In this document: piece after piece, positions 39,894 through 43,297 of the stretch | Position numbering within the stretch: position 1 is the first letter of the stretch | How the letters are laid out: each line of letters starts with the position of its first letter | Assembly (NCBI RefSeq): GCF_003430825.1 | Contig: NZ_CP024047.1 | Location: 2,046,001-2,110,000 of the forward strand | Direction of reading: 5' to 3' | DNA length: 64,000 nucleotides | Source of the DNA: Natrarchaeobaculum sulfurireducens | GTDB taxonomy: Archaea; Halobacteriota; Halobacteria; Halobacteriales; Natrialbaceae | Translations under genes and position numbers: made by a program | The notes under the pieces: model-generated | Told to the model about the DNA's origin: nothing | What the model saw: the letters and a program-made list of their open reading frames with translations, nothing else | The model's database searches: none

Positions 39894-40577
39894 ATGGTTA
39901 CGGGCGCGATTCTCGCCGGCGGCCGATCGACCCGCTTCGGCGACGAGGACAAAGCCGTTGCGTCACTCGCAGGAACGCCGATGATCCGCCGGGTCGCAGA
40001 TCGACTCGCTGGGACGGCACCGCCGGTCGAACCGGGCGCGGCGGCGGCCAGCGACGGCGAACCCGTCATCGACAACCTGGTCGTCAACTGCCGAGCCGAC
40101 CAGCGCGAACCGATCGCCGACGCGATGGCGGGGTATCCACTCGAGGTCGCCTACGTCGAGGACGAGACGCCGGACCAGGGACCGATGGCCGGCATCCGAA
40201 ACGCCTGTCGAGGCGCGCCCGACGAGTGGACCGTTATCGTCGCCTGCGACATGCCGTTTGTCGACCCGACTCTCGTCAGCTACCTCTGTGGGGTGGCTCG
40301 AGATCACGAGGCGGCAGTTCCCCGACTCGAGGACGAGTGGTATCAGACGACTCAGGCCGTCTACCGCTCGGCGCCGATGGCGGACGCCTGTGACCGGGCG
40401 CTCGCTCGCGGCGACAGAAAGATCCTCGAGCCGTTGTTCGACCTCGACTACGTCGTCGTCGACGACGATGCGATCCGTGACGTTACCACCGAGTTGACGT
40501 TCGATAACGTCAACACCAGTGCGGACCTGAAACGTGCCGAGCGCCGCTATCGCGCGGATGGCCCGGACAGCGAGTGA
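39894..40577 (+). CDS. mobA: Molybdenum cofactor guanylyltransferase
   Basis: A 227-residue nucleotidyltransferase. It opens with the GTP-binding signature 'ILAGGRSTRFGDEDKA' at residues 6-21 and has 'VIVACDMPFVDPTLVSYL' near 115 with the Mg-binding Asp. MobA attaches GMP to molybdopterin; in archaea related enzymes can make other nucleotide forms of Mo/W-pterin cofactors. It is the first gene of a same-strand Mo/W-related group; the AOR homologue begins 158 bases downstream and a yqeC-like gene lies convergent beyond it. A Pro/Glu-rich insertion near residues 45-60 is slightly unusual. Confidence 0.88.
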   Translation: MVTGAILAGGRSTRFGDEDKAVASLAGTPMIRRVADRLAGTAPPVEPGAAAASDGEPVIDNLVVNCRADQREPIADAMAGYPLEVAYVEDETPDQGPMAGIRNACRGAPDEWTVIVACDMPFVDPTLVSYLCGVARDHEAAVPRLEDEWYQTTQAVYRSAPMADACDRALARGDRKILEPLFDLDYVVVDDDAIRDVTTELTFDNVNTSADLKRAERRYRADGPDSE

Positions 40578-40735: not shown

Positions 40736-42541
40736 ATGCCCGACAGGGACGTCCTGGTGCGAGTCGACCTCTCAGCAGGACGTGTAACCAGCGAGGCGAT
40801 CCCGGAGCGGTGGCTCGAGCAGTACGTGGGAGGGAAAGGCCTCGGCGCTCGATACCTCTACGACGAACTCGAGGCAGGAACGGACCCGCACGCGCCGGAG
40901 AACGTTCTCCTGTTCGCGCTCGGGCCGCTCACTGGCTACACACCCGGCGACCAGCGATACGCGGCGATCACGAAGTCGCCCCTGACGGGTGCGTTTCTCG
41001 ACTCCTACGGCGGTGGCACCTTCCCCGCGCGACTGGCTGGCTCGCTCGAAGGACACCTCGGCGTACTCGTAACGGGTGTAGCTGCCGAGCCCGTCGTCCT
41101 CGAAGTCGACGGCGGCGAGGCGCGACTCGAGTCTGCCGACGACCTGTGGGGGCTCAACGCCGAGGCGACCTGCGATCGGTTCCCGGACGCCGCCGTTGCC
41201 TGCGTCGGCCCCGCGGGCGAAAACGGCGTCCAGTTCGCGACCATCGCCTCCGACGGCGGCGACCATCACGCTGGCCGCGGCGGCGCAGGCACCGTGATGG
41301 GCGCGAAGAACCTGAAAGCCGTCGTGGCCCACGGATCGGCCCCCGACGGGCTCGAGGACCTGCACGAGCGCGACGAAACGGCGTTCGCCGAGAGTGACGC
41401 CGGTCGGTGGCTCGCAGCCAGCGACACCCTCGAGACGGTCGACTTCGCGAACGAGGTCGGCGTGTTGCCGACCCGAGGCTGGCAGGCTCGCTCTTTCGAC
41501 GGCGCCGACAACCTCGGCATCGAACGGGTTCGCAAAGCCGCCCACGGTCGAGAACGACCCGACGATCCCGTCCCAGGAGGGTTTCGCGTCGACAGTGACG
41601 AGGGCGAGAGCGTCCCTCGCGGCGCGGCGCCGATCGTCCTCGGGGCCGGCCTCGGCATCGACGACTTCGACGCCGTCGCCACGCTGGGGGCTATCTGCGA
41701 CCGACTCGCGATGGACGTCATCACCGCGGGCAACGCGGTCGCCTGGTCGATGCGAGCGAGCCAGGAAGGGCTGCTCGAGCGCGACCTCGAGTTCGGCGAC
41801 GAGGCGGCCGCCCGAACCCTGATCGACGAAATCGCCACCCGATCGACCCCCCTCGGCGAGGCGCTCGCTGACGGCGTCGATGCCGCGACAGCCCGGTTCG
41901 GCGGCGACGATCTGATCCCGACGGTCAAAGGAATGGAACTCTCCTCGTACGACCCGCGAAACGCGGAGACAATGGCGCTCGCGTACGCGACGAGCGACCG
42001 CGGCGGCTGTCACCGCCGTGCCCGCCCCGTCGAACTCGAGCCCGTCGCTGGTGGCACGTGGGACCCGGCGCGGAAGGTCGCAGCCGTCGTCGACGAGCAG
42101 AACCGACGGGCCGTCCTGTGGAGTCTGATCGCCGACGACTTTCTCGAGGACGTATTGCGGCCGACAGTCGCCGCGGAGTGGCTCTCGGCGGTCGGCTACG
42201 AGTGCGACGAGGACGAACTCGCACGGGTTGGCGAGCGGGTCTGGACCCTGGTCAAGCTGTTCAACCTTCGCGAGGGATTCTCGCGAGCCGACGACGAACT
42301 GCCCTCGACGCTGACCGAACCGCTCGAGGACGACGGGACAGCGGGCCTCGATCCGGAGGCGTTCGACGCGTTGCTCGATCGATACTACGCGATCCGCGGC
42401 TGGAACAATCGGGGTCAACCGACCGAGACCACCCTCCGTCGGCTGGATCTGTGTGACGTGTCGGACGCAGAGACACCGGTCCGGCGCTCCTCAGACGAGA
42501 CACCCGCCGGCCGCTCGACAGACGAGACGCCGGAGACCTGA
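40736..42541 (+). CDS. Aldehyde:ferredoxin oxidoreductase homologue lacking Fe-S cluster cysteines
   Basis: A 601-residue tungstopterin-type enzyme. The N-domain is well kept: 'YVGGKGLGARYLYDEL' near 31, 'FLDSYGGGTFPARLAG' near 86, 'GENGVQFATIASDGGDHHAG' near 161 and 'GGAGTVMGAKNLKAVV' near 182. The later 'MELSSYDPRNAETMAL' and 'SDRGGCH' segments also match. The CxxCxxxC segment expected after 'LPTRGWQ', and the fourth Cys near the C-terminal domain, are absent: no Cys occurs between about residues 160 and 310. The usual acidic residue before the 'LG.GLGIDD' stretch is also changed. The Ser/Thr-rich tail repeats 'SDETP'. It may bind Mo/W-pterin but cannot hold the normal [4Fe-4S] cluster. Confidence 0.85.
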   Translation: MPDRDVLVRVDLSAGRVTSEAIPERWLEQYVGGKGLGARYLYDELEAGTDPHAPENVLLFALGPLTGYTPGDQRYAAITKSPLTGAFLDSYGGGTFPARLAGSLEGHLGVLVTGVAAEPVVLEVDGGEARLESADDLWGLNAEATCDRFPDAAVACVGPAGENGVQFATIASDGGDHHAGRGGAGTVMGAKNLKAVVAHGSAPDGLEDLHERDETAFAESDAGRWLAASDTLETVDFANEVGVLPTRGWQARSFDGADNLGIERVRKAAHGRERPDDPVPGGFRVDSDEGESVPRGAAPIVLGAGLGIDDFDAVATLGAICDRLAMDVITAGNAVAWSMRASQEGLLERDLEFGDEAAARTLIDEIATRSTPLGEALADGVDAATARFGGDDLIPTVKGMELSSYDPRNAETMALAYATSDRGGCHRRARPVELEPVAGGTWDPARKVAAVVDEQNRRAVLWSLIADDFLEDVLRPTVAAEWLSAVGYECDEDELARVGERVWTLVKLFNLREGFSRADDELPSTLTEPLEDDGTAGLDPEAFDALLDRYYAIRGWNNRGQPTETTLRRLDLCDVSDAETPVRRSSDETPAGRSTDETPET

Positions 42542-42568: not shown

Positions 42569-43297
42569 TCAGACGACGTCGACGACCGGCTGGTCCTCGA
42601 GAAAGCTCGTGAGAACGACGCGTGAGATGAGGCGCTGCTCGTGTAGCTGTGCCGCGATTTCGCGGGCCGTCCGCTCTGTGTCGGCGTCGTCGACCATGTT
42701 GATCAGCGGGACGACCGTCGCATCCGCCGGAACGTCGGCCCAGCCGCCTCGGTCGCTCGCGAGGACGGTCGCCACGTCAGCCGCCGAAATCCGGTCGCCG
42801 TGCTCGAGACCGGTCAGTTCGACGACGCGCTCGGGCCGGTGGACGTGCTCGTCGGTCAGCGGTTCGCCGACGATACGTGCGCTGGCGATCGGGACGACGA
42901 TGTCGGCGGAATCCGGAATCTGGGGTTCGTTTTCGCCGGGTGCTTTGAACCAGCGAGTTCGTGCGCCATCGGCTTTGACGAGCACCGAAACGTCGTCGTC
43001 GACGTCGGCTGCGAGGGCGTCCACCGTCTCCGTCTCGTATCCCCGATACCGGTCGGATCGTTCTCGAGCGCGGACGAGGCCGATCGGCCACTCTCGAGCT
43101 TCCTCGACGGGCGACAGCGGCGCTTTGGCGACGTGAACGGCCGCGACGTGATCGTCGAACGGTGGAATCCTGACGGTCGCGGTGACGATCGCCCGCTCGA
43201 GTCTCCCGGCGAGTGCGTAAAGCGTCGATTTCTTGCCGCCGGCACCGACGACGCAGGTTACGTTGCCGTCGGCATCGAGTGCCTCGACGAGGTCCAT
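42569..43297 (-). CDS. yqeC: YqeC-like putative selenium/molybdenum cofactor biosynthesis protein
   Basis: A 242-residue P-loop-like protein. It begins with a nucleotide-binding pattern 'CVVGAGGKKSTLYALAGRL' near residues 15-33 and contains 'VLVKADGARTRWFKAPGENEPQIPDSADIVVPI' in two adjacent blocks near 105-135, the hallmark I associate with the YqeC family (TIGR03172). In bacteria yqeC accompanies selenium-dependent molybdenum hydroxylases. Here it lies convergent with the AOR homologue (27-base gap) and near mobA, so a role in handling the Mo/W cofactor is inferred, not shown. Confidence 0.8.
   Translation of the reverse strand: MDLVEALDADGNVTCVVGAGGKKSTLYALAGRLERAIVTATVRIPPFDDHVAAVHVAKAPLSPVEEAREWPIGLVRARERSDRYRGYETETVDALAADVDDDVSVLVKADGARTRWFKAPGENEPQIPDSADIVVPIASARIVGEPLTDEHVHRPERVVELTGLEHGDRISAADVATVLASDRGGWADVPADATVVPLINMVDDADTERTAREIAAQLHEQRLISRVVLTSFLEDQPVVDVV

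Follow-up and report, generated by a model that had tools for sequence, protein, structure and literature searches.

A cluster-less aldehyde oxidoreductase homologue of Halobacteria is linked to formate dehydrogenase and may carry its cofactor

The main genomic context of a cluster-less member of the aldehyde oxidoreductase (AOR) family in Halobacteria is formate dehydrogenase (FDH), a connection that the preliminary description of the gene had missed and that is seen both in gene neighbourhoods and in co-occurrence across genomes. We propose, with a probability of roughly 0.4, that the protein has retired from AOR catalysis and now assists FDH, most likely as a carrier of the Mo/W-bispterin cofactor acting with YqeC and MobA. 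In E. coli, holding the cofactor and sulfurating it for FDH is the task of FdhD. A 2023 review noted that halobacteria often have FDH genes without fdhD and that it is not known which proteins insert and sulfurate the cofactor in them (PMC10609526); the cluster-less AOR and YqeC are named, testable candidates for this gap, and the groups bearing the former include the genetically tractable genus Haloferax. Because it is usually encoded beside FDH and cofactor-handling genes, we regard the cluster-less AOR as a candidate part of the FDH-activating machinery of Halobacteria. If so, it would be the first AOR, within the literature searched, to have been turned from an enzyme into an accessory protein; our search found no literature on AOR together with YqeC.

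An AOR fold with a rebuilt cluster side

The gene lies in the window, the whole 64,000-nucleotide stretch of Natrarchaeobaculum sulfurireducens DNA that was analysed, as an intact open reading frame of 601 amino acids starting at ATG 40736 (40736..42541, + strand). As first described, it sits between mobA and yqeC: a MobA-like nucleotidyltransferase (39894..40577, + strand; Pfam NTP_transf_3, 113 bits) is encoded 158 bp upstream, and a convergent yqeC (42569..43297, − strand) lies 27 bp from the stop, its product scoring 164.5 bits against NCBIfam TIGR03172, above the cut-off of 73. The protein comprises the Pfam domains AFOR_N (209 bits) and AFOR_C (310 bits), and its nearest solved structures are tungsten aldehyde oxidoreductases. 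An AlphaFold2 model, taken from a 72-row alignment, has a mean pLDDT of 92.5, a pTM of 0.92 and a TM-score of 0.90 to 1AOR; a 21-row alignment gave pLDDT 28-45 in the remodelled segment described below. Both AFOR domains and the AOR fold place the protein in the AOR/WOR superfamily, with whose members (1AOR, 1B25, 9MQX; TM about 0.9) it also shares the N-domain pterin pocket and residues T243, Y427 and H448, but from which it differs in the absence of the [4Fe-4S] cysteines and Glu313, the replacement of D489 by Trp and its FDH-linked context. On annotated plasmids, PGAP names it only 'aldehyde ferredoxin oxidoreductase C-terminal domain-containing protein'.

We mapped the residues of 51 members in P. 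furiosus AOR numbering. Cluster cysteines C288 and C291 are mostly D, E or G, C295 is G, and C494 is Asp in all 51, while the catalytic E313 is Ala, Gly or Ser (Ala in 44). In the window, alignments and the residue map show the CxxCxxxC...GPEYE region replaced by a remodelled segment, RERPDDPVPGGF...VPRGAAP (residues 272-299; 41549..41632, + strand), and the motif D489...C494, which holds the second pterin ligand and the fourth cluster cysteine, replaced by W462...D467 (42119..42136, + strand), with W and D present in 51/51. Retained residues are R76, T243, D338 (48/51), D343, Y427 and H448, the last being His426 of the protein (42011..42013, + strand) and invariant in all 51 rows. The first-pterin residues are kept, and D489, by the ligand roles in 1AOR a second-pterin ligand of AOR, is Trp, so bis-pterin binding by the cluster-less protein is putative.

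The cluster cysteines are absent from every orthologue inspected, and all of these carry new conserved motifs: RERxDDxVPGGF, VPRGxTPIxLGAG, RG(A/G)CHRRARP and LWSL(I/V)xDDF. No shifted substitute was found among 21 members, whose only invariant cysteines, C321 and C425, lie outside the cluster segments; nor do the cluster-less AORs have a CxxC motif or a clade-specific cysteine able to carry sulfur. The four other AOR paralogs of the same genome retain CxxCxxxC. In a 2026 classification of the AOR family, the cluster counts among the standard parts of the large subunit, and T243, E313, Y427 and H448 are named as the catalytic residues of the aldehyde enzymes (PMC13328260). By the definition of Class I WorL given there, the protein lacks the [4Fe-4S] cluster on four cysteines, and it has three of the four catalytic residues, Glu313 being gone. 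Given the kept pocket residues and the model statistics above, the scaffold and N-domain pocket are intact, with the cluster side and the second-pterin ligand rebuilt around new invariant residues. These data bear out what had been read from the window alone, namely that the Fe-S cysteines are gone, that a nearby acidic residue is altered (here both D489 and E313) and that the pterin-binding N-domain motifs are kept.

A single loss within Halobacteria

We searched 292 genomes of the class and, after removing eight weak-hit genomes upon inspection, found an orthologue in 159, mostly at 51-78% identity. Bit scores separate the family from its relatives, with cluster-less members mostly at 850 bits or more, their sister group at about 620 and others at 420 or less. 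None was found outside Halobacteria among 197 genomes of the phylum, where the best homologues all retain the cysteines. In a tree of 73 rows, the 51 cluster-less sequences fall on one branch (SH-aLRT 100). The sister group, Cys-bearing AORs of Halobacteria such as that of a Natrialba magadii plasmid, is the nearest clade, at 41-49% identity; it shares the loss of D489 and an RGxCH(Q/R)RA motif with the cluster-less AORs but, unlike them, retains Glu313, CxxCxxxC, GPEYE and C494. All four cysteines being present in the sister group, the clade reflects one loss of the cluster and not damage to a single copy; the simplest order would have D489 lost first, with the cluster and Glu lost later, once.

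The clade is under purifying selection, with dN/dS of 0.07-0.27 in close pairs. Together with the full-length reading frame, this agrees with the initial view that the gene is not decayed, and the anticipated clade of Cys-less proteins, monophyletic and with the same neighbours, was recovered, YqeC and MobA lying near 45 and 27, respectively, of 97 distinct loci. An ordinary AOR that is damaged or misread, the case that would have undone that view, we consider next to impossible: nothing was found in its favour, and the Cys-less state common to 159 genomes, the dN/dS values and the invariant replacements W462 and D467 oppose it. Chance or decay as the cause of the cysteine loss is ruled out by the same genome count and dN/dS range.

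Linkage to formate dehydrogenase

Neighbourhoods were taken at the 97 distinct loci, extending 10 kb to either side as far as contig ends permitted, with neighbour profiles built from these same loci. An FDH catalytic (alpha) subunit is encoded within about 10 kb in 65 of them (33 TAT-exported, 16 of an NAD type fused to a NuoG-like part, 15 soluble and one locus with two types), and FDH, YqeC or MobA in 82. TorD-like genes occur near 35/97, HdrA/FlpD-like genes near 33/97 and a gene with a DUF7124 domain near 37/97. FDH, cofactor or TorD-type neighbours are absent at 14 of the 97 loci, some of them on short contigs. As a control, 20 loci of Cys-bearing paralogs and eight of the sister group yielded one FDH-like match, no YqeC and no MobA. 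The eight sister loci, free of FDH, YqeC and MobA, have transport and catabolic genes as neighbours; by eye, from first residues, aldo/keto reductase-like, ABC transporter and other catabolic-looking genes adjoin the sister AORs (L223-L230), consistent with real aldehyde oxidation. The order mobA-AOR-yqeC, singled out in the preliminary description, is present in the window, but across loci it is only one of several arrangements.

On annotated plasmids, fdhF adjoins the cluster-less AOR. FDHs with a Cys-His active-site motif should need a sulfurated cofactor, and as all 64 linked FDHs tested (64/64) have this motif, they should need one too.

The DUF7124 gene encodes a long protein and, at 36 of the 97 loci, lies directly downstream on the same strand (e.g. 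L071:11875-12663, L037:10767-11483). We rejected it as a specific partner marker because the domain occurs in 292/292 genomes; specificity may lie only in the additional copy that is linked.

Co-occurrence across genomes

The FDH alpha subunit (TIGR01591) was found in 235 genomes at E ≤ 1e-100, in 208 at E ≤ 1e-199 (the strict set) and in 211 over the curated cut-off; YqeC was found in 201 of 292. Every genome with the cluster-less AOR (159/159) carries YqeC and an FDH-like alpha subunit. The AOR, strict FDH and YqeC occur together in 152 genomes, strict FDH and YqeC without the AOR in 39 (of 191 with both), strict FDH alone in 17, the AOR and YqeC without strict FDH in 7, YqeC alone in 3 and none of them in 74; throughout this tally, absences may in a few genomes be assembly gaps. 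Within genera (CMH), the AOR is associated with FDH at p = 1e-6 and with YqeC at p = 2e-13. YqeC accompanies 191 of the 208 strict FDH genomes and adjoins FDH and MobA even where the AOR is absent, several FDH loci of AOR-less genomes holding both.

FdhD (PF02634) matched in 0 of 292 genomes, that of the window included, whereas E. coli, M. jannaschii and six other controls were positive. The cluster-less AOR shows no homology to PF02634. Like FdhD, a sulfurtransferase and cofactor carrier, it is linked to FDH genes and has a proposed role at FDH; however, the two families are unrelated, and FdhD uses a catalytic cysteine whereas the AOR has none of its own.

The 17 genomes with strict FDH alpha and neither YqeC nor the AOR (G014, G026, G031, G039, G073, G087, G157, G208, G221, G227 and others) have FDH reading frames of mostly about 757-875 aa where a length is listed, which may represent a distinct subtype that is matured differently or serves another function.

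Proposed function and alternatives

In our proposal, the protein would go back to a tungsten/molybdenum aldehyde oxidoreductase from which the [4Fe-4S] cluster and the catalytic Glu disappeared on one occasion within Halobacteria. The descendant would bind Mo/W-bispterin in the cytoplasm through the retained N-domain pocket, holding the cofactor or handing it to FDH during maturation, while MobA would add GMP and YqeC might provide a sulfur or energy step. The link to FDH is shown by the linkage and co-occurrence above, while this carrier role, cofactor binding and the division of labour with YqeC are what we infer. As the AOR is linked to exported and cytoplasmic FDHs alike, a cytoplasmic maturation factor fits better than a fixed subunit; with the company of MobA and YqeC and the kept pterin pocket, a cytoplasmic carrier fits best. 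TorD/NarJ-type chaperones are likewise accessory genes at bis-PGD enzyme loci but have an unrelated fold, and since TorD-like genes occur beside the AOR, it does not replace them. Nor does it seem to be obligatory, and it cannot be the whole answer, since FDH and YqeC occur in 39 genomes that lack it. Those genomes, together with FDH loci that have only YqeC and MobA beside them, also weaken a strict replacement of FdhD by the AOR alone.

YqeC is annotated as a selenium-cofactor protein and has so far been tied to selenium-dependent molybdenum hydroxylases; its distribution here suggests a selenium-independent role hidden by that annotation. With a P-loop-like motif (CVVGAGGKKST in the window) and one cysteine conserved in 39 of the 40 YqeC proteins of these loci, YqeC is a better candidate for the sulfur step than the AOR. 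Deletion of yqeC in C. difficile gave no clear phenotype, and complementation of a double mutant hinted at a role (PMC11448449). A haloarchaeal route standing in for FdhD, with the cluster-less AOR holding Mo/W-bispterin and YqeC supplying the sulfur step, can be put forward only tentatively.

Two functions were first suggested for the protein. With both the catalytic Glu and the electron exit gone, and with the AOR tracking FDH and cofactor genes, we now prefer the carrier or chaperone to a Mo/W enzyme that uses a different electron acceptor. A working cluster-free enzyme, feeding formate to the neighbouring FDH by a redox-neutral step such as aldehyde dismutation or by oxidation towards a soluble acceptor, would account for the retention of three of the four aldehyde-enzyme residues (T243, Y427, H448; PMC13328260) and for plasmid pairs of AOR and FDH near BCCT transporters, a Rieske-type dioxygenase, serine hydroxymethyltransferase and formate-THF ligase, where formaldehyde may arise. 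We nevertheless think it unlikely, given the loss of both Glu313 and the electron exit and the 33 loci with TAT-exported FDH, which indicate FDH itself and not one catabolic route.

The remodelled cluster loop and second-pterin ligand, and the DUF7124 gene directly downstream at 36 loci, would also suit a pseudoenzyme that keeps FDH stable or controls it through direct contact between the proteins, perhaps with the adjoining DUF7124 protein and with no handling of cofactor. That reading seems to us rather doubtful, as a pure scaffold would have no need of the conserved R76, D338, D343 and H448, and the partner FDHs come in three architectures. Finally, YqeC and MobA alone might replace FdhD, leaving the AOR to store or sense spare Mo/W cofactor; YqeC does track FDH more fully than the AOR and adjoins it, with MobA, in AOR-less genomes, but many AOR genes are linked to FDH itself, and no genome has the AOR without YqeC, which makes storage or sensing quite improbable.

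In the Haloterrigena turkmenica and Halobellus limi plasmids (L253, L254), pairs of cluster-less AOR and FDH lie amid BCCT transporters and one-carbon genes (serine hydroxymethyltransferase or formate-THF ligase), a setting that suggests that methylated osmolytes supply C1 units for oxidation. In the genome of the window itself, a cluster for a TAT-exported FDH (L232:5412-15671; C3:1448411-1458670) contains, besides FdhB, FdhC-like, TorD-like, HdrA-like and MobA genes, an AOR paralog that has its cysteines (CLGCPLEC); linkage to FDH thus extends to a second AOR lineage.
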